From the IMG/VR virus record IMGVR_UViG_3300010966_000088, positions 1 through 34,061 of that record: a stretch of DNA of 34,061 nt; one strand, written 5' to 3'. A program made the translations under genes and the position numbers. This stretch comes from a virus. This document shows, piece after piece, positions 5,746 through 24,371 of the stretch (positions are counted from its first letter, which is position 1; every line of letters begins with the position of its first letter). The notes under the pieces were generated by a model, which worked only from the letters and a program-made list of their open reading frames with translations, made no database searches and was not told where the DNA came from.

Positions 5746-5973
5746 GTGGCAATCAAGTCCGTAACGCACGCGTCACCGGTGAGCATTTCTCACCCGGATT
5801 CTGGCCAGTTCATCACCGTTTCTCGAGGTGACCAGTTCGATTCCTCCGATCCGATCGTCAAGCATTTTCCGTGGTTGTTCGCACCGGTGCCCGACATCGA
5901 GACGGATGCAGGCGGCCGGCCGATCGAGGACGCAACATCGTTTCCGGGCAAGTCGCGCCGGCCGTTGCGGTGA
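5746..5973 (+). CDS. Small protein downstream of capsid, unknown
   Basis: 75-aa protein, GTG start with a TGGGAG ribosome-binding site. It begins MAIKSVTHASPVSISHPDSG and is Ser/Asp/Pro-rich with a short beta-type centre and a basic C-terminus. Small proteins of this kind often follow capsid genes and may be head decoration or connector parts, but I recognise no family. Its stop overlaps the glycosyltransferase start (GTGA at 5970-5973), so the two are translationally coupled. Confidence 0.7.
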   Translation: MAIKSVTHASPVSISHPDSGQFITVSRGDQFDSSDPIVKHFPWLFAPVPDIETDAGGRPIEDATSFPGKSRRPLR

Positions 5974-6731
5974 CGGCTGATCGGGTGATCGTCGGCTTTG
6001 TCGATGATCACCATTGGTCAGCGTCGTTCGGAATGTCTCTGAGGGACATGTACCTACGGGACATCAGCGCCGAGTGTCGGATCATCCGGGCTGGTGGGGT
6101 TGAGCTCCGTAAGGTCGCCGGCACGATGGGTGTTGCTGACGGTCGCAACGAGCTGGTTGCGGAGTTCCTCGATCGGACCGACGGTGATTGGTTGTTCATG
6201 GTCGATACCGATATGGGGTTCGATCCGGACACGGTTGACCGGCTGATTGCGTCGGCTGATCCTGTAGAGCGGCCGGTGGTCGGCGGGTTGTGTTTCGCGT
6301 TGCGGCATTCCGGTTCGGGCCCGCAACGGTCGGAAACGTTCGGGATCGTTCCGACCGTGTACGCATGGGAGGACTTGCCGGACGAGTCGGGGTTTATGCC
6401 TCTGCCGGATTACCCGCGCGACACCATTTTCCAAGCTGGTGGCACCGGTGCGGCGTGTTTGCTGATCCATCGGCGTGCGCTCGCAACGATCCGGAAAGCA
6501 CAGGGTGATGTGTGGTTCGATCCGATCAAGCATCCGACTGCGGCCGGTGGCAAGCCTCGAGGGTTCTCCGAGGATCTGTCGTTCTGTGTCCGGTTGGCCG
6601 CGGCCGGTATCCCGTTGCACGTTGATTCGCGGGTGAAAACCTCGCATCACAAGGGACCCCTGTTCCTGACTGAACGGATGTTCCTCGACCAGCAAGCCCG
6701 CGCAGTAAATAGGGAATTGGTGCCCGAATGA
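5970..6731 (+). CDS. Glycosyltransferase, GT-A fold (probable virion-modifying)
   Basis: 253-aa protein. I place the start at GTG 5970, overlapping the previous stop, because the frame upstream lies inside the 75-aa gene. Seen: an N-terminal beta strand VIVGFVDDHH, a DxD-type metal/nucleotide-sugar motif (DTDM, residues 79-82) after a hydrophobic strand WLFMV, a Gly-rich acceptor-side segment FQAGGTGAACLLIHRR (154-169), an acidic base-like SEDLSFC (200-206) and a late basic-His stretch TSHHKG (224-229). This order is that of phage GT-A transferases. Their lying inside the structural operon suggests glycosylation of capsid or tail proteins rather than of DNA; that is inference. It overlaps the next gene by ATGA. 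Confidence 0.82.
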   Translation: MTADRVIVGFVDDHHWSASFGMSLRDMYLRDISAECRIIRAGGVELRKVAGTMGVADGRNELVAEFLDRTDGDWLFMVDTDMGFDPDTVDRLIASADPVERPVVGGLCFALRHSGSGPQRSETFGIVPTVYAWEDLPDESGFMPLPDYPRDTIFQAGGTGAACLLIHRRALATIRKAQGDVWFDPIKHPTAAGGKPRGFSEDLSFCVRLAAAGIPLHVDSRVKTSHHKGPLFLTERMFLDQQARAVNRELVPE

Positions 6732-7045
6732 GTCTGACGTTTACCCGGCAAGAGAGTCCGTCTGTTTCTCTGACGATCGGTGGTGTCGATCAGTCAGTGC
6801 CGAACGTCTCGGCGTTCGGCACCACGGCCGAATGGTTGGCCTCCGGGCATGTCCTTGGGGTCGCCGAGATCGGTTGGGATACCACCACCAACACCGTGGT
6901 GGTCGGCAACGGGGTCAGTCTGTTCGCAGCGTTGCCGGCAATCGGGACCGGTGTCACCGGTGGTGTGCAGGTGATCCTGATTGACACGGTGGAGGACCTA
7001 CCCGAGGGCACACCGGTGGGCACTGTCGTGGTGACCCGCGCATGA
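6728..7045 (+). CDS. Small virion protein with an Mtd-N-like motif
   Basis: 105-aa protein, ATG start overlapping the glycosyltransferase stop. Residues about 34-70 contain the pattern G-x-A-E-I-G-W-D-T-T-T-N-T-V-V-V-G-N-G, close to the EIGvDt..n.ikvGDG signature found in small beta-prism domains of phage fibres and tropism determinants. The rest is Val/Thr/Gly-rich beta structure. It is probably a capsid- or fibre-associated piece paired with the next gene, which it overlaps by ATGA. Family membership is judged by eye; no catalytic residues are seen. Confidence 0.6.
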   Translation: MSLTFTRQESPSVSLTIGGVDQSVPNVSAFGTTAEWLASGHVLGVAEIGWDTTTNTVVVGNGVSLFAALPAIGTGVTGGVQVILIDTVEDLPEGTPVGTVVVTRA

Positions 7046-8526
7046 CCACGCTCACCGGTGCGCCGGTCACCTCGACCCAACCGACGCTGATGGTTACGGT
7101 CCCCAACGGTGTCACCACCAACATGGGGGCCCTGTTCACGGTGGCCACTGCGGACGGCAACGATTGGGACCCGGTGCCCGCCTCCGCCGGTGCCTCGTTC
7201 ACCCTGCTTGATGACCGGGCAGCCACGAATATGCGGGTGACCTTGTGGGCTGGCACTGGTCTGGCCGCGGGGGCACCGGTGGATTTTGTGGGGTCGGTGG
7301 CGACTCAGGCGACGGTCAACCACGTGTATTCGGACGAGTGGGCGCCTCGAGCTGCAGGGATTGCACCGGCGATCAGGTCGGGTTCATCAGCGGTATGTGT
7401 GTCGGGGTCGGTCGCTGCAGAGTCGGGGGGGGTGGTGTTGCTGGTCAGTCTTGAGCGGACCACGGCAACCGGCACCACCGTGGTCTCTGCCGTGAGCTCT
7501 GGCGGTGAACCGGTCACTACGGTGTCGTTCGCCGAAGCAACCGGCACCGTGACATCGACACTTGTTGCCCGGTTCACTGCCAGCGCGAGCGCAGCACGGA
7601 CAGGGACCGTGACCTACTCGAGCGGTTCGGGGAATGGGTATGCGGCGCTGATCCTGACCGATGTGCCGGCCGCACCGGTGGGACCGGAGGTCGGCTACGT
7701 GGCCACAGGTGGTGGTCTGGAGACTGGTCACGCGTATGTGGTGGGCACCGGTGGTGAGCTTGAGGTGCCGGTGGAGGTGAGGGGGTTCTCGCCCGGGTAT
7801 GCGTCTGTGACGGCAATGCTCGCGTCGCCGGTGTTCCGGATTGCTCACCGGGGAGGGTCTGCCGATTGGCCCGAGATGACTGCGCACGCTTACACACAAG
7901 CTGTGTGGTGGGGTGCCGGTGCCCTTGAGATCTCGGTCGGTATTACCTCCGATGGTGTCCTGTTCGGGCTGCATGATGAAACGTTGGACAGGACATCCGG
8001 CACAACGGGTTGGGACCCACGGACCCACACGTGGGCGGAGGTGCAAGCGTTCACGGTGGCGCCACCCGATGGGTCATCGACGGTCGCCGGCAAGCCGTAC
8101 GCGCGGCTCACGGATCTGCTTGACCTGTACACGGATCGGGTCGTGTTCGTTGACCCGAAGTATCTCAACCTGTCCCAACGCGCGGCACTGCTGCAGGTCA
8201 TGGCGTCCAAGCCGAACGCGGTTGACCGGTTCGTGTGGAAGTACTTCGGCACAGCCGAGAACATCGCTGCACAAGGGAAGTCTGCAGGGTTCACGACATG
8301 GGGTTACTTCTACGAAGCAGACGATTACGTTGCCAGCGCTGCGAGCTGGGACATCCTCGGTATGGACTACTCGGCATCGGCCGGCACGTGGACTGCGATC
8401 ACTGCCCTAGGTAAACCGGTGATCGGGCACGTGGTCACCACGGCCAATCAGGCGAATCAGGCTGTCGCCCGTGGCGCGGTGGGTCTGATGTGCGCTGGTG
8501 TCAAAGCGATCATTCCGCGCGCATGA
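7042..8526 (+). CDS. Virion protein: shared beta domain plus GDPD-like domain
   Basis: 494 aa. Residues 1 to about 210 are a Thr/Val/Ser-rich beta domain closely similar (near half identical by eye) to the N-terminus of the tail-tip protein at 13787. Residues about 265-494 resemble glycerophosphodiester phosphodiesterases: AHRGG (268-272), an acidic PEMT (277-280), ITSDG (301-305), HDETLDRT (311-318) and VDPKY (370-374). The TIM-barrel family hydrolyses glycerophosphodiesters using metal ligands E-x-D and a later E-x-K. Here these read E-I-S (296-298) and D-P-K (371-373), so activity is uncertain. Possible roles are envelope digestion or a binding barrel. Its place between capsid and connector suggests a head-associated protein. 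Confidence 0.78.
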   Translation: MTTLTGAPVTSTQPTLMVTVPNGVTTNMGALFTVATADGNDWDPVPASAGASFTLLDDRAATNMRVTLWAGTGLAAGAPVDFVGSVATQATVNHVYSDEWAPRAAGIAPAIRSGSSAVCVSGSVAAESGGVVLLVSLERTTATGTTVVSAVSSGGEPVTTVSFAEATGTVTSTLVARFTASASAARTGTVTYSSGSGNGYAALILTDVPAAPVGPEVGYVATGGGLETGHAYVVGTGGELEVPVEVRGFSPGYASVTAMLASPVFRIAHRGGSADWPEMTAHAYTQAVWWGAGALEISVGITSDGVLFGLHDETLDRTSGTTGWDPRTHTWAEVQAFTVAPPDGSSTVAGKPYARLTDLLDLYTDRVVFVDPKYLNLSQRAALLQVMASKPNAVDRFVWKYFGTAENIAAQGKSAGFTTWGYFYEADDYVASAASWDILGMDYSASAGTWTAITALGKPVIGHVVTTANQANQAVARGAVGLMCAGVKAIIPRA

Positions 8527-13786: not shown

Positions 13787-16700
13787 ATGACGTTCATTCA
13801 GGGCACCCCTGGGGTTGGGACAACACCAACCCTTGATTTCACTGTTCCGCCCGGGGTGACCTCCGGAATGGTTGGTGTCATTGTGTTTTCGTTGGCATCG
13901 GGCACTGATTGGGACCCGGTGCCGTTCAAGTCCGGTGCCACGTTCACCCTCGTTGATGATCGGGCAGCGACCAACCTTCGGGTGACCGTGTGGTCAGGTA
14001 CCGGTCTCGTTGCCGGTGATGTGGTTACCGTGTCAGCGACGATCGACAATCAGGCGAACGTGTGGCACCTCTACACGGACGAATTCACCGTTGATGTTCC
14101 GACGCTCGCGGCCGGTGTCAGGGGAGGGAGTACCGCGGTAACTGTGTCGGGTTCGGTGACACCTGATCTGGGTCAGACTGTTCTGGTCATTGCGTCGGAA
14201 CGGACTACGGCAACGGGTTCCGTGGTGTCGTCTGTGGTGTCGAGTGGCGGAGAAACGATCACTGACCAGTTGTTCTCGGAGCAACCGGAGACCGTAACCT
14301 CAACGTATATGGGTACTTTCGTTGCGAGCGCTGCAGCGTCTAGAACGGTGACGATCACCCATAACAGTGCGTCGACCAACGGATATTGCGCCGTGGTGGA
14401 GGTCGTTTCGGCTGCAGTACCGACCCCGGTACCTCCGTCTGACTTCCCTAACGAGCCGCTTGCCGTTGTGGTGCAAGCAAAGTTCGATGGTACGAACTGG
14501 ACTGACATCACTGATGATGCTCTCGTTCGTTCACCGATCACGGTCAAGCGTGGCAAGAGTGATGAACAGTCGAAAGCTGAACCGTCGAAAGTTGGTCTGA
14601 CACTGCGGAACCCGGACGGTCGATACTCTCCCCGTAACCCGTCAGGTCCGTACTACGGGAAGATATCTCGCAATACTGAACTGCGAGTAGGGGTCAGCGA
14701 ATCGTCAACATGGTTGGACTGTCCTGGCCCAACCGGTGCGGTTACGGTGGCGCGGTCAGTGTCGACCCCGGACCATGCCTCGCTGGACATCACCGGTGAT
14801 CTCGATATCCGGTTCGATGCTGATCTCGATTCCTGGCACGAAGATCTAGACCTCGTTTCCAAAGGTGTTGAATCCACTAACCAAAGGTCGTATTGGTTTC
14901 GGATCAACGCGGACGGTCTGTTGTACCTGTACCGGTCTGTGACCGGCACGAGTTGGTCCTCTGCGGTTTCTACACGGTCGGTACCCGTGGTGAGGGGACG
15001 TCTAGCGGTCAGGGCAACTCTCGACGTCGACAACGGTTCGGGCGGGCGAACCACAACGTTTTACACGGCGCCAACGATGGCAGGGCCCTGGGAGCAACTC
15101 GGGTTGACCGGTGTTGGTACCGGGGTCATCAGCATTTTTGCTAGTACAGCGCCTCTGGTGGTTCTCGATAACCCAACTATCGAAGCAGGTTTCAGCCGTG
15201 CCGTGAGGGGCAGGGTTTACGGTGTTGAGGTCCGTGACGGGATCGGTGGGACGGTAGTCGCCGGCCCGGATTTCACTACCCTGACATCAGGTGATGCCTC
15301 GTTCACAGACGCACCGGGTAGGTTGTGGACGCTCAACGGGCCGGTGAAGATCACCAATCTTGACGTGCGGGGGCACGGTGAGGTCCCTGCGTGGCCTCAA
15401 AAGTGGGATCTGTCAGGGAAAGACGTGTGGACACCGATCGAGGCTGCAGGGATCACACGGCGCCTAGGGCAGGGTGCGGCGCCGTTGTCGTCGCCTCTGA
15501 AACGAGGCATGACCTCCGGTGCCCTGTCCGGGGTTGTCGCTTATTGGCCAGTGGAGGATCTTGCCGGAGCGTCGGTGATCTCGACGGCTCTTGCCAACGG
15601 GCGAACAATGAGCTTGGCAGGTGATGACAACACTACGTTTTCTTCCTCGGAGGTCATTCCGGGTTCGGACTCGATCGCCGTGTTGGGTGATAAGTCATCG
15701 TGGGTTGGTTCGGTGCGGCCGGTGACGGCTACGGGCAAGCTGCAGATGTGGTGGGTGATGCAGTGTCCTGCAGGTGGTCTCACCAATAATGAGGTGCTGA
15801 TCAGTCTGGCGACAACGGGCACCGTTGGTACAGCCAATGTCACTTACTCAACAGGTGGGAATCTGCGAGTGGTGTTCGTTGATCCGAATACTGGGTCGAC
15901 GATCGGGACGGTAGGGCCGTATGCGTATGCTGCGGACGGGTTGGCGGTCAAGATGTCGCTAGACCTGACTCAGAACGGTTCTGATGTCGATGTTGAGCTG
16001 AAAATGCTTGTCCCTGGTGCAAGTGGTGGGGTTACGGGACCCGGAACCATCAGTAGTAGGACGGTGGGCAGGGCGGTATCGGTAGAGGTCTCTCCGGGCG
16101 CTGGCACCCCTGATCTACACATGGGGCACATCAGTGTCCACACAACGATCTACAGCCTGTACGCACAAGGCAGAGAGCTCGCTGGTTGGGTTGGTGAGGT
16201 GATGGGCCGGCGCATCGAACGGTTGTGCTCTGAGGAAGACATCCCGTTCCGGCTGATCGGGAATCTTGACGCTACCGTGCCCGGTGGGATCCAAAAGTCT
16301 CTGCCGGTGTTGGAGTTGCTGCAGGAAGCTGCAGACGCTGACGGTGGGATTCTGGCCGAGAGCAGAGACGATCTGTCGCTGATGTTCGTCCCGAGGAAGG
16401 CGCTGCAGCAGGATCTTTCACCGATGGTGTCCGTGCCGTATGGGTCGATGGTTGAGCTTGACCCGATAGAGGATGATGAGTCGACACGGAACGACATCAC
16501 GGTGATTCGAGATGGTGGGTCATCGTTCCGTGTTGAGCAGACAACGGGGGGCATGTCGACGTCAGCGCCTCCTACTGGGATCGGCCGGTATCAGGTCTCT
16601 GAGACCTACTCTCTGGCATCGGATGCGCAGTTGCCGGATTACGCGCATTGGCGTCTGAGCCTTGGCACCGTGGATGAGTTGCGTTACCCGAGTGTGGGTT

Positions 16701-17218
16701 TCGCGCTTGAGCATCCTGACATAGCGTCTGACGCCGTGGTTGTTTCGTCTCTGCGTAGAGCTGATCTCGGGCAAAGGTTGGAACTTACGGGCCCGTTCCC
16801 TGCCTGGCTACCACCCGATCCGGTTGACACCATCATCATCGGATCTGAGGAAACGCTAGGGGTTTACGATCACTCGATCGTTTACAACTGCGTACCCGGT
16901 GAGCCTTACCGTATCGGCATGTGGACGGGGGGTGCCGAACATCGTTGGGGTGGTGAGGGTTCTACGATCACAAGCTCGATAACGACTACTGCGACAAGTG
17001 TTTCGGTTTCGTTCGGTACCGGTGTTCGGTGGGTCACCGATCCTGCAGAGTTTCCCTTCGATGCCCGGATCGGGGCGGAGGTGGTGACCGTAACAGCGAT
17101 CACCGGCACAACTTCACCGCAGACTGCGACGGTAACCCGTTCGGTGAACGGGGTTGTGTTGGCGCATCCTGCCGGTACATCGTTCGATCTTGCCTATCCT
17201 GTTTACTACTCGGTTTAA
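13787..17218 (+). CDS. Large tail-tip protein (Dit/Tal-like minor tail protein)
   Basis: 1143 aa, ATG after a GAGAGGG site. Residues 1-210 are the beta domain shared with the GDPD-like protein at 7042. From about 225 there is a minor-tail module (KFDGTNWTDITDD, then SKVGLTLRNPDGRYSP), followed by LamG/concanavalin-like stretches (about 320-480 and 590-750) that commonly bind carbohydrate, a central segment RRLGQGAAPLSSPLKRG (about 558-574), and a late segment resembling the tail-hub fold up to VYDHSIVYNC. A terminal beta piece ends with VLAHPAGTSFDLAYP. One protein seems to combine baseplate hub and receptor-binding functions; only one further tail gene follows. No protease or hydrolase motif is seen. 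Confidence 0.85.
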   Translation: MTFIQGTPGVGTTPTLDFTVPPGVTSGMVGVIVFSLASGTDWDPVPFKSGATFTLVDDRAATNLRVTVWSGTGLVAGDVVTVSATIDNQANVWHLYTDEFTVDVPTLAAGVRGGSTAVTVSGSVTPDLGQTVLVIASERTTATGSVVSSVVSSGGETITDQLFSEQPETVTSTYMGTFVASAAASRTVTITHNSASTNGYCAVVEVVSAAVPTPVPPSDFPNEPLAVVVQAKFDGTNWTDITDDALVRSPITVKRGKSDEQSKAEPSKVGLTLRNPDGRYSPRNPSGPYYGKISRNTELRVGVSESSTWLDCPGPTGAVTVARSVSTPDHASLDITGDLDIRFDADLDSWHEDLDLVSKGVESTNQRSYWFRINADGLLYLYRSVTGTSWSSAVSTRSVPVVRGRLAVRATLDVDNGSGGRTTTFYTAPTMAGPWEQLGLTGVGTGVISIFASTAPLVVLDNPTIEAGFSRAVRGRVYGVEVRDGIGGTVVAGPDFTTLTSGDASFTDAPGRLWTLNGPVKITNLDVRGHGEVPAWPQKWDLSGKDVWTPIEAAGITRRLGQGAAPLSSPLKRGMTSGALSGVVAYWPVEDLAGASVISTALANGRTMSLAGDDNTTFSSSEVIPGSDSIAVLGDKSSWVGSVRPVTATGKLQMWWVMQCPAGGLTNNEVLISLATTGTVGTANVTYSTGGNLRVVFVDPNTGSTIGTVGPYAYAADGLAVKMSLDLTQNGSDVDVELKMLVPGASGGVTGPGTISSRTVGRAVSVEVSPGAGTPDLHMGHISVHTTIYSLYAQGRELAGWVGEVMGRRIERLCSEEDIPFRLIGNLDATVPGGIQKSLPVLELLQEAADADGGILAESRDDLSLMFVPRKALQQDLSPMVSVPYGSMVELDPIEDDESTRNDITVIRDGGSSFRVEQTTGGMSTSAPPTGIGRYQVSETYSLASDAQLPDYAHWRLSLGTVDELRYPSVGFALEHPDIASDAVVVSSLRRADLGQRLELTGPFPAWLPPDPVDTIIIGSEETLGVYDHSIVYNCVPGEPYRIGMWTGGAEHRWGGEGSTITSSITTTATSVSVSFGTGVRWVTDPAEFPFDARIGAEVVTVTAITGTTSPQTATVTRSVNGVVLAHPAGTSFDLAYPVYYSV

Positions 17219-22573: not shown

Positions 22574-22764
22574 GCACATTAAAGAACTACCGAATCAGAT
22601 GTGATCGGCCGCGCGCCGATCACCCAACCGATCAACACGGTGTGACGTTATGCATCGGATGGACGAATACCCCCCGCGCCACGCTGGCAGAGGCGCGGCA
22701 GGATGCGCGGATTGAAGGTTGGACGGTTGAGGGAGGAAAGGATCTATGTCCGATCACAAAGTGA
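22570..22764 (+). CDS. Small conserved-type phage protein, unknown
   Basis: 64 aa, GTG start overlapping the previous stop. It contains YRIRCDRPRADHP, GVTLCIGWTNTPRATLAEAR, and ends QDARIEGWTVEGGKDLCPITK. The A-x-x-x-A-R-x-x-GW ... D-x-CP ending is a familiar form of small actinophage proteins with two or three Cys that might bind a metal. It overlaps the methyltransferase start by 19 bases and supplies that gene's ribosome-binding region. Confidence 0.65.
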   Translation: MSTLKNYRIRCDRPRADHPTDQHGVTLCIGWTNTPRATLAEARQDARIEGWTVEGGKDLCPITK

Positions 22765-24371
22765 TCAAGTTGGGGTCGGTGTGCTCTGGGTATGGAGGCC
22801 TTGAGCTGGGTATCGGTCAGGTGATCGACACTGACCTGATGTGGGTAGCGGACTACTCGCCACCGACCCCTAAAGATCCGAGACCGCGGCAGGGTGCCTC
22901 AATGATCCTCGCGCACCGGTTCCCTGGTGTCCCGAATCTCGGAGACATCACCACCACCGATTGGCCGAATACCGCACCGGTAGACGTGATCTGTGGTGGA
23001 ACACCCTGCCAGGACGTATCCGCGGCCGGTGCTCTCAAGGGGATGCGCGCCGGTACACGGTCCGGCATCTGGTCAAGCATGGTCGAAGCAATCGCCCACC
23101 ATAGGCCGACACTTGTTGTCTGGGAGAACGTGAAAGGGGCACTTAGTGCTGGAGCCGATAGCGGTATGGAACCCTGCCCGATCTGTCTGGGAGACAACAC
23201 AGGACGCTCTTTGCGGGCACTCGGCCGTGTTCTCGGAGACCTTTCCGAGCTCGGGTATGACGCGTGCTGGCAAGTTGTTCCCGCTTCCGCCATTGGTGCA
23301 CCCCACCGAAGAGAACGCGTTTTCGTCGTCGCCTGGCCTACTGCCGACCCCAACTGTCGGAAACATACAGGGGGGCAACAAGAGTCGATCGGGGCCAAGG
23401 TCAGCGGAGTTGCTGCTGCCGGGGGTAGCGGCTCAGATCAGCGAATCGGTGGATCTATTGGGTACGCCGCGGGCGAGTTCACGGAACGGGCCGGGGAACT
23501 GGGAGGACAACACGCGTGGAACACGGGGAAGACTCGAGGGGCAAATAGATCAACTATTGAAGACTCCGACCGCTCAACTAGCAATCAACGGGGGCAGTCA
23601 GCATCCAGACAAGCGACGGGCGGGGGGGCCCGGCCCGACACTGGCCGATCAGATCGAGCAAGAGATAGCGTCCACAAAGATGCTCCCTACCCCAGTAGCG
23701 CGGGATTGGAAAGGAGACGGACCGGGTCAAGCCAACCGGAACAGCCCCAACATGTCAGCGATAGCTCAGCTACTTCCGTCGCCTCTGGCGACAAGGAACA
23801 GCAAAAGCTCTCGGACGCTGACCAGTTCGGCAGAGACGGGGGGGCAACGGCACGGGCTCGGGGGGCAGTCAGGGCCGTTGGGGTTGGAAGAGGTGGCGTT
23901 GCTGGCATCGGGAACGATTCCGGATCATCTGCCGGAATTGGATCTGTTGGGTTCCGGAACTCGCCGGATAGTGGAATCGCTGATGCCAACCCCGAAAGCA
24001 ACCGATGGGACGAAAGGGGGACCGAATCAGCGGGGTTCGTCGGGAGACTTGACCCTGCCATCAGCGATGGTGGGGTTATCGAGTGGGGAGACTACAGGCG
24101 AGCTGTTCAGCGGTGGGAACGACTGTTCGGGAGAGTTGCCCCTCGACCTACCGAGCTAAGTTCCCGTGGTGGGCAAGTCCTCTCGCCGGTTTTTGTTGAG
24201 TGGATGATGGGCCTTCCCGAGGGGCATGTGACCGGTGTCCCTGGGTTGACTCGCGCGGATCAGCTCAAGGCGCTCGGTAATGGTGTTGTGCCGGATCAAG
24301 CTGGGTACGCGGTGTGGAGTTTGCTGAGGCATGCGCCGGGTTGGGTTCGGGATCGGTTGGGGATCGGTTGA
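22746..24371 (+). CDS. DNA cytosine-5 methyltransferase
   Basis: 541 aa, ATG after GGAGGAAAGG. Conserved C5-MTase motifs are in order: motif I VCSGYGGLELGIG (12-24), motif IV GGTPCQDVSAAG with nucleophile C88, motif VI WENVKG (126-131), a possible zinc pair CPIC (144-147), motif VIII PHRRERVFVVA (about 184-194), and at the end FVEWMMGLPEGH and ALGNGVVPDQA (motif X-like). Residues about 200-450, where the target-recognition domain should be, are Gly/Ser/Arg-rich and low-complexity. The same DNA carries a 337-codon +1 frame with its own ribosome site. It probably protects phage DNA from host restriction; the target is not known. The gene contains no CTGCAG. Confidence 0.92.
   Translation: MSDHKVIKLGSVCSGYGGLELGIGQVIDTDLMWVADYSPPTPKDPRPRQGASMILAHRFPGVPNLGDITTTDWPNTAPVDVICGGTPCQDVSAAGALKGMRAGTRSGIWSSMVEAIAHHRPTLVVWENVKGALSAGADSGMEPCPICLGDNTGRSLRALGRVLGDLSELGYDACWQVVPASAIGAPHRRERVFVVAWPTADPNCRKHTGGQQESIGAKVSGVAAAGGSGSDQRIGGSIGYAAGEFTERAGELGGQHAWNTGKTRGANRSTIEDSDRSTSNQRGQSASRQATGGGARPDTGRSDRARDSVHKDAPYPSSAGLERRRTGSSQPEQPQHVSDSSATSVASGDKEQQKLSDADQFGRDGGATARARGAVRAVGVGRGGVAGIGNDSGSSAGIGSVGFRNSPDSGIADANPESNRWDERGTESAGFVGRLDPAISDGGVIEWGDYRRAVQRWERLFGRVAPRPTELSSRGGQVLSPVFVEWMMGLPEGHVTGVPGLTRADQLKALGNGVVPDQAGYAVWSLLRHAPGWVRDRLGIG
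23146..24159 (+). CDS. Nested +1-frame ORF inside the methyltransferase gene
   Basis: 337 codons from GTG 23146, with GAAAGGGG at 23132-23139, 6 bases ahead; the tail gene at 17239 uses the same GAAAGGGG. The product opens VLEPIAVWNPARSVWETTQ, has SSGMTRAGKLFPLPPLVHPT (about 34-53), and repeats LLPTPxxx units (LLPTPTVGN, LLGTPRASS, LLKTPTAQL, MLPTPVARDWKG, LLPSPLATR, LMPTPKATDGTKGG). Third-codon GC in the middle segment looks higher in this frame than in the methyltransferase frame, as expected for translated DNA. Proteins with such LPTP repeats occur with phage MTases in my recollection. Function unknown; it could be a separately made protein or evolutionary source of the MTase insert. Confidence 0.6.
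   Translation: MLEPIAVWNPARSVWETTQDALCGHSAVFSETFPSSGMTRAGKLFPLPPLVHPTEENAFSSSPGLLPTPTVGNIQGGNKSRSGPRSAELLLPGVAAQISESVDLLGTPRASSRNGPGNWEDNTRGTRGRLEGQIDQLLKTPTAQLAINGGSQHPDKRRAGGPGPTLADQIEQEIASTKMLPTPVARDWKGDGPGQANRNSPNMSAIAQLLPSPLATRNSKSSRTLTSSAETGGQRHGLGGQSGPLGLEEVALLASGTIPDHLPELDLLGSGTRRIVESLMPTPKATDGTKGGPNQRGSSGDLTLPSAMVGLSSGETTGELFSGGNDCSGELPLDLPS

Follow-up and report, generated by a model that had tools for sequence, protein, structure and literature searches.

The DNA (cytosine-5) methyltransferase gene (ORF A) of the viral record IMGVR_UViG_3300010966_000088 holds within it, in the +1 frame, a second open reading frame (ORF B) that is very probably a real gene, its translation being inferred and not shown. 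With a probability of about two in three, we read the two products as a single C5 methyltransferase (MTase), in which B would be a target-recognition domain (TRD) subunit built of exchangeable cassettes and acting in trans. An earlier inspection of the letters alone (the sequence-only reading) had reported a 337-codon +1 ORF with a GTG start inside the MTase gene and had proposed overprinting. The ORF lies where it was described (Table 1), and overprinting is supported by the substitution pattern, by shuffles in which one of the two proteins is fixed, by a conserved start, and by the architecture of the whole family. The criterion for an overprinted pair, that is, purifying selection in the B frame exceeding what A imposes, is met.

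Throughout, "the window" denotes the whole stretch of DNA that was analysed, namely the 34,061 bases of this record, which include genes for a terminase, portal, tape-measure protein, endolysin, exonuclease VIII, and a RusA-like protein. It probably derives from a tailed phage, with an actinobacterial host inferred from its relatives. Three further genes in the structural region of the window can be recorded here. Two encode large proteins (7042-8526 and 13787-17218) with matches to phosphodiesterase families (phrog_17803, E 1.2e-68, and phrog_24476, E 1.6e-34, respectively), the second also matching phrog_5313, a family of unknown function (E 6.3e-210); the third, at 5871-6731, is glycosyltransferase-like (phrog_34859, E 2.4e-12).

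Table 1. Features of ORF A and ORF B in the window (positions are those of the window)
Feature	Position	Strand	Remarks
ORF A, DNA (cytosine-5) methyltransferase	22746..24371	+	541 codons; a single frame encodes motifs I-VIII and IX-X
Shine-Dalgarno-like site, GAAAGGGG, inside the ENV(K/R)G motif VI of A	23132..23139	+	from sequence; 6 bases before the GTG
ORF B, nested in the +1 frame of A	23146..24159	+	GTG start, 337 codons
B N-terminal "WET" mini-domain (name coined here), residues 1-50, over motif VII-VIII of A	23146..23295	+	dual-coding
Linker of A from motif VIII to motif IX, of low complexity (rich in G, S, A, R, and D)	23331..24074	+	from shuffles and composition
LPTP cassette 1 (TVGNIQGGNKSRSG type)	23338..23454	+	family in 24 loci, all three architectures
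LLGTP stretch 2, degenerate, weaker anchor	23455..23553	+	sequence only
LLKTP cassette 3 (TAQLAxNGGSQHPDKR type)	23554..23679	+	family in 32 loci (overprint in 29)
LPTP cassette 4 (VARDWKGxGP type)	23680..23769	+	family in 15 loci; window is the only overprint member
LLPSP stretch 5	23770..23979	+	close relative not found, best 0.33-0.44
LMPTP cassette 6 (ATDGTKGGPNQRGSSGDL type)	23980..24072	+	family in 41 loci, all three architectures
C-terminal part of A, motifs IX (FVEWMMGLP) and X (GNGVVP)	24075..24332	+	bounds of own-profile match

By profile and motifs A is a C5 MTase, cytosine methylation itself being inferred in the absence of an assay. It matches Pfam PF00145 (E 1.3e-25, residues 8-198) and PHROGs family phrog_363 (E 4.9e-55), motifs I, IV, VI, VIII, IX, and X can all be located by pattern, and the profile criterion for a C5 MTase is met; TIGR00675 gave E 4.3e-23, yet below the cut-off of that family. 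The sequence-only reading had called the MTase frame over the nested ORF a Gly/Ser/Arg stretch of low complexity, and G, S, R, D, and A do account for 60% of A residues 196-440. Among relatives arranged like the window (the overprint loci described below), amino-acid entropy was lower in the A reading in 45/45 inserts of at least 100 codons.

ORF B, its relatives and their architectures

Searching the +1 protein against phage proteins, a check put forward by the sequence-only reading, gave a match to phrog_1008 ("DNA methyltransferase", PHROGs v4) at E 9.3e-32, and tblastn with B found 210 phage records; absence from other phages, which would have spoken against the gene, is thereby ruled out. 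The best of four stretches of window B aligns with phrog_1008 positions 71-151 and the C-terminus of A with positions 225-321, and this sharing of one family was the first sign that B and the end of A form one chain in other phages. Judged by organism name, the records containing B are all actinobacteria phages but for one (Microcystis), with one given by virus genus only. Two matches in BFVD had E < 0.001, namely an uncultured-phage methyltransferase and a protein from Gordonia phage McKinley whose length, 135 residues, is that of the B-type ORF of this phage. No match was found in Pfam up to E 1 or in NCBIfam up to E 0.01, nor by sequence among solved structures (PDB), where the single match, at E 0.97, was taken as chance. 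When viral contigs were searched with window B alone, none of the nine pattern matches was confirmed as a relative, and alignments were therefore used instead.

Phage genomes carry an unannotated or misannotated gene, as judged from the records of six named phages. Those of Darolandstone, Inspectinfecti, and Hamulus give A but omit B; those of Gordonia phages McKinley, Hans, and Sedona (L218, L219, and L220) list the B-type ORF as "hypothetical protein", overlapping an MTase N-terminus for which no gene is given. As a separate observation, a +1-frame ORF directly before B is annotated as a (LAGLIDADG) endonuclease in Inspectinfecti (L003:1045-1500), Hans (L219:1045-1500), and Sedona (L220:724-1500). 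In L003 this ORF lies inside the MTase ORF, at a long low-complexity insertion of A, and L003 alone matches Pfam LAGLIDADG_1, at E 0.023, which is below cut-off. Such an ORF is possibly a homing endonuclease that is read through by the MTase frame.

For the family as a whole we compared 217 loci, consisting of the window, 7 named phages, 80 + 80 IMG/VR loci, and 49 genome loci. One set of 80 IMG/VR loci was retrieved via the MTase N-terminus, a query independent of the B frame; the other 80, together with the genome loci, were retrieved via the B N-terminus. Removal of 16 loci with identical N-termini left 201 unique ones, which fall largely into three architectures, classes that are in part defined by openness itself. 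In the overprint architecture, which is that of the window (91/201), A is whole, and the nested B is open up to the C-terminal part or stops at most 15 codons short of it; B ends a median 19 codons beyond the start of that part (65 loci of the first 168-locus set). In the split architecture (47/201), B continues into MTase motifs IX-X, and A stops a median 12 codons past motif VIII (at most 56 codons in 39/47, at least 100 in 8/47). In the hybrid architecture (42/201), units of LPTP type stand in the A chain between motif VIII and motifs IX-X, and B is short. Among named phages, Darolandstone is an overprint case, Ovechkin a split one, and Hamulus a hybrid. Outside these classes are 8 "other" loci, 11 in which the C-terminus was not found, and 2 in which B ends early inside a whole A.

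The 80 loci retrieved via A alone comprise 30 overprint, 28 split, 10 hybrid, and 4 other loci, with 8 lacking a found C-terminus and none having an early end of B. A profile of the B N-terminus is matched in the +1 frame by 76 of these 80, partly because of the conserved motifs of A itself. A +1 frame broken by stops while the MTase frame is kept had been named as grounds for rejecting the nested gene, and this is not the pattern seen: among the 135 unique loci whose A carries motifs IX-X, the +1 frame is open to within 15 codons of the part holding them in 91, ends earlier with the LPTP units moved into A in 42, and ends earlier without such a move in two (L150 and L167). A FastTree tree of 140 MTase N-termini (the part upstream of B, support not weighed) requires 20 or more architecture changes, so interconversion of the forms is frequent.

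Start site and selection on the B frame

The B start lies under the A motif ENV(R/K)GxxS, and the Shine-Dalgarno (SD)-like sequence reported six bases upstream of the GTG was found there (Table 1). For the arginine of ENVR the codon is AGA or AGG in 64% of 117 cases (elsewhere, 15% of 1771), and for the serine whose codon gives rise to the GTG it is AGT in 64% of 103 (elsewhere, 7% of 1016); the glycine codon of the motif is skewed as well, and together the three skews spell an SD-like site and a GTG. Scanning 150 loci, the window included, an SD-like site with ATG or GTG was present in the +1 frame of the B-start interval in 90, versus 0-3 in each of seven other combinations of frame and interval used as controls. 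The 60 loci without the SD-like pattern have some start codon in 57 cases and none in 3. Loci retrieved via A alone have an SD-like site and start in 16/36, and in the other frame in 0/36.

SD-like site and start co-occur over 109 loci (61, 14, 7, 27; P 3e-9), the association being weak and not significant in loci retrieved via A alone (16, 9, 3, 7; P 0.13). An asparagine codon AAT, which gives ATG in the +1 frame, was found in 38 of the 69 loci without SD and GTG and in 8 of the 75 with them, and some genome loci (e.g., L174, L190, and L194) have GGAAGGAGACGACGATG instead, with ATG in the +1 frame. One should keep in mind that the SD-plus-start pattern was formulated after the sites had been inspected, that kinship is uncorrected in the start-site counts, that the codon skews and the pairing of SD and start were computed on the first 168 loci (159 unique), and that loci with an N score of 200 or less were excluded from the 150-locus scan and from the checks of stop contexts. 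Conservation of the start site is supported by these alignments and is the only basis for expression, so that translation remains an inference.

In 67 of the 75 loci having both SD and GTG, a +1 stop lies just 5' of the B start and so bars in-frame entry into B from any point 5' of that stop. This counts against programmed ribosomal frameshifting, by which the ribosome would pass from A to B after motif VIII and, in the window, back again before motif IX. Such shifts would yield one chain in the order seen in hybrids, and the stop of A soon after motif VIII in most split relatives is compatible with them; however, the window would need two, and no shared slippery motif was seen by eye in the A stop contexts of 36 split relatives. 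We regard frameshifting as very unlikely and return to B as a gene with a start of its own.

The openness of B is weak evidence for that gene. In the window, 2000 shuffles of the whole overlap with the A protein and its codon supply fixed left B open in 48.5% of cases, and the figure for the insert only is 80.5%. Averaged over the overprint class (91 loci), B is expected to be open with a chance of 0.585 when A is given, and A with a chance of 0.282 when B is given; B is in fact open across the exact insert bounds in 90 of these loci. An open B frame is thus unsurprising given A, and the strong evidence is conservation. Over 35 pairs of window modules with modules of other overprint loci, B identity is 0.758, versus 0.248 expected with both A proteins fixed; A identity is 0.324 over those pairs, with 0.321 expected when both B proteins are fixed. 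Only pairs with a B identity of 0.55 or more entered this set of 35, a selection that inflates the observed B value, and all module pairs were drawn from the first 168 loci (159 unique). The similarity of A in the compared modules is what B alone gives, which supports the earlier suggestion that the low complexity of A is dictated by the other frame. The third-position GC, which had seemed higher in the +1 frame, is indeed 0.663 in B and 0.567 in A over the overlap (0.669 in A upstream of B).

Substitutions follow the same course. In overprint modules (46 independent pairs) the change rates at the first, second, and third B positions (B1, B2, and B3) are 0.135, 0.093, and 0.334, and changes fall mostly at B third positions whichever classes are paired. 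In A upstream of B the per-site changes are 0.129, 0.097, and 0.343 at A1, A2, and A3, and in the C-terminal part of A of overprint loci (23 pairs) they are 0.139, 0.110, and 0.367. Along the gene, selection accordingly shifts from A to both frames, then to B over the cassettes, and then back to A.

These results bear on two alternatives. B could be an untranslated by-product, an open frame left behind by the codons and repeats of A, and the shuffles that fix A are what one would then see. We find this scarcely credible given a B identity far above the expected value, changes concentrated at B third positions in every class pairing, a conserved start, and LPTP units that are in-frame sequence in split and hybrid relatives; what else speaks for it concerns the N-terminus of B and is taken up below. 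Chance openness as the sole explanation of B was set aside, since the conservation of B exceeds the level forced by A.

Conversely, the insert of A could itself be the TRD in the window, with B a relic of an earlier split or hybrid form. With the B protein fixed, A was open in 0/2000 shuffles over the whole overlap and in 0/1000 over the insert, and A is kept readable there though its amino acids look free; motifs IX-X are conserved in A of overprint loci, which would also suit a relic. We nevertheless judge it highly improbable, as B is conserved at the amino-acid level in the compared modules and A only to the extent that B accounts for, and a relic would lose the third-position pattern, which B keeps.

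LPTP cassettes and the WET mini-domain

The repeated LLPTP-type units noticed in B by the sequence-only reading are present at five starts, with a sixth, weaker one (Table 1). When cassette 3 is compared with its counterpart in L048, differences at B1, B2, and B3 number 5, 3, and 23 of 36 codons, and cassette 6 compared with L047 gives 5, 3, and 21 of 31 codons; the bias is milder between the first cassette and L159 (14, 7, and 20 of 35 codons). From the 180 loci of the three classes 429 units were cut out, the commonest families occurring in 41, 32, and 24 loci. The largest is divided among overprint, split, and hybrid loci as 26, 7, and 8, and the 24-locus family as 4, 4, and 16. Units 85-88% identical to those of the window are carried by MTases whose N-termini are 48-57% identical to that of the window, and from these alignments the cassettes seem to move between enzymes more or less independently, like TRDs.

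At least one LPTP-type unit, read in each case in the frame of the unit, is found in 81/91 overprint, 40/47 split, and 41/42 hybrid loci; a unit by pattern is missing in 10/91 overprint and 7/47 split loci. The LPTP patterns and class limits were fixed after inspection of the first eight loci. An association of LPTP-repeat proteins with phage MTases, which the sequence-only reading had suggested, proves right, the units standing in the MTase chain itself in hybrids and being joined to motifs IX-X in most split loci.

The N-terminal WET mini-domain of B is a different case, as here both frames are constrained, hybrids included. In the WET core, defined as the 20-66 codons ahead of the end of motif VIII, the A3 rate is 0.178 versus 0.343 upstream, and A1 is not lowered (0.153; 63 independent pairs). 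A3 is the second position of B and A1 its third, which fits the amino acids of B being held rather than the DNA as such, and B identity rises from 0.61 to 0.78. The drop in A3 into the core is found in every class: from 0.435 to 0.224 in split, from 0.316 to 0.161 in overprint, and from 0.305 to 0.157 in hybrid loci. It is weaker, from 0.435 to 0.326 (18 independent pairs), in remote relatives, that is, loci with an N score of 200 or less, which were kept apart from the main 63-pair set.

That weaker constraint is a point in favour of the untranslated by-product, as is the stretch over motif VIII, where B identity is 0.70 while A third positions change freely (0.286): part of the similarity of B N-termini follows from motif VII-VIII of A. 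Similarity in the +1 N-terminus is also seen in most of the remote relatives L043-L088, with weaker evidence of selection, and may there be partly a by-product of MTase motif VII-VIII.

The predicted structure of window B (83 rows) is poor overall (mean pLDDT 56, pTM 0.31) and worst over the cassettes. Its residues 1-50, modelled as short strands, reach pLDDT 91, 89, 81, 77, and 90 per block of ten, and WET is a confident mini-domain in the model. L022, a one-cassette hybrid, models well (81.7, pTM 0.82). Its best structural alignment is with M.HhaI (Z 24.4, rmsd 2.8, 250 aligned), the alignment made by Foldseek being looser (TM 0.58, rmsd 9.4); its cassette blocks score 51-79 and the linker preceding them 36-39. 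The L022 model supports the place of the cassette and not its contacts. Among 13 chains compared, no fold relative of B reached a Z of 2 or more, a weak test, as most of the B model is poor and the comparison tests little.

In hybrids WET persists as a short ORF of its own, with an SD-like site and a start in 26/37, which implies a role beyond carrying cassettes. The same survival, with the cassettes already in A, gives some weight to B being a separately translated accessory protein (e.g., an anti-restriction protein or a regulator) and not a TRD, the MTase gene being its carrier. The continued constraint on WET in hybrids and the lack of a Pfam, NCBIfam, or PDB relative of window B by sequence agree with this. 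It is hard to reconcile with B itself bearing motifs IX-X in 47/201 loci and with LPTP units inside the MTase chain in 42/201, and we consider an accessory protein unlikely, though still to be reckoned with.

The proposed enzyme and known systems

In C5 MTases, the TRD normally sits between motif VIII and motifs IX-X. The placing of the cassettes at this position in split and hybrid relatives is supported, and it is the ground for reading B as the specificity subunit. On the simplest account of the three forms, a complete enzyme would need motifs I-VIII and IX-X together with the cassettes, supplied by a single chain in hybrids and by two chains in the split and overprint forms. In the window, cassettes and motifs IX-X are joined in no single chain, so the trans arrangement has to be assumed. 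A would supply the catalytic part (motifs I-VIII) and motifs IX-X, with a drifting low-complexity linker at the usual TRD site, and B, made up of the WET domain followed by exchangeable LPTP cassettes in tandem, would be translated from its own ribosome-binding site and GTG within A and would dock on A in trans. Each cassette or cassette pair might add one recognised sequence, so that the phage genome would be protected from several host restriction enzymes and specificity could be changed by a cassette swap; that WET holds the complex together is a guess. Translation of B, its assembly with A, sequence recognition, multiple specificity, and the role of WET are inferred only, there being no data on expression, binding, or methylation.

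A broader proposal, which we hold at slightly better than even, is that the window exemplifies a widespread class of phage C5 MTases. In this class, specificity would be a separate, cassette-built gene nested in another frame of the gene for the enzyme, to which the recognition domain would have moved, the catalytic chain would keep only a drifting linker in its place, single indels would interconvert overprinted, split, and single-chain forms, and WET would be a third component, frame-locked over motif VII-VIII. Should B prove to be the specificity subunit, phages would possess a library of exchangeable C5 MTase recognition cassettes that could naturally be used in either cis or trans.

In bacteria and phages, long genes nested on the same strand are disputed, few of them showing evidence of selection. 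The case of ORF B has many relatives, frame-specific selection, a conserved start, and three architectures that act as mutual controls.

Among known enzymes, those of the Bacillus subtilis phages SPR, phi3T, and rho11 are multispecific C5 MTases in which several exchangeable TRDs follow one another between motif VIII and motif IX. The layout of the 42 hybrid loci is similar, the LPTP units and these TRDs not having been compared in sequence. The Bacillus phage enzymes are single chains, whereas the units of the window lie in a separate nested gene, and the same-chain criterion is not met. The phrog_1008 profile looks like a B of split type, and the window divides that single chain between two frames. 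In a second kind of precedent, the gene for the small subunit of M.EcoHK31I reportedly overlaps that for the large subunit in a different frame.

Among the open-licence literature matches listed, PMC3711429 and PMC8227390 included, none described a phage C5 MTase gene with another gene nested inside it. According to PMC3404938, M.AquI and M.EcoHK31I are natural two-polypeptide C5 MTases, and in the latter (YGGCCR) the larger polypeptide retains motifs I-VIII and X. The arrangement of M.AquI, with motifs IX-X on the second polypeptide, is met in 47/201 loci and not in the window, where A keeps motifs IX-X and B is without them; window B moreover lies wholly within A, in the other frame, and has the extra N-terminal WET. 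In M.EcoHK31I the predicted TRD is on the large subunit and motif IX on the small one, whereas in the window B has the cassettes and A has motif IX (FVEWMMGLP is in A and not in the B translation), so that the arrangement with motif IX alone on the small polypeptide is not met either. Split and overlapping C5 MTases are already known, and the window fits none of the nearest precedents fully.
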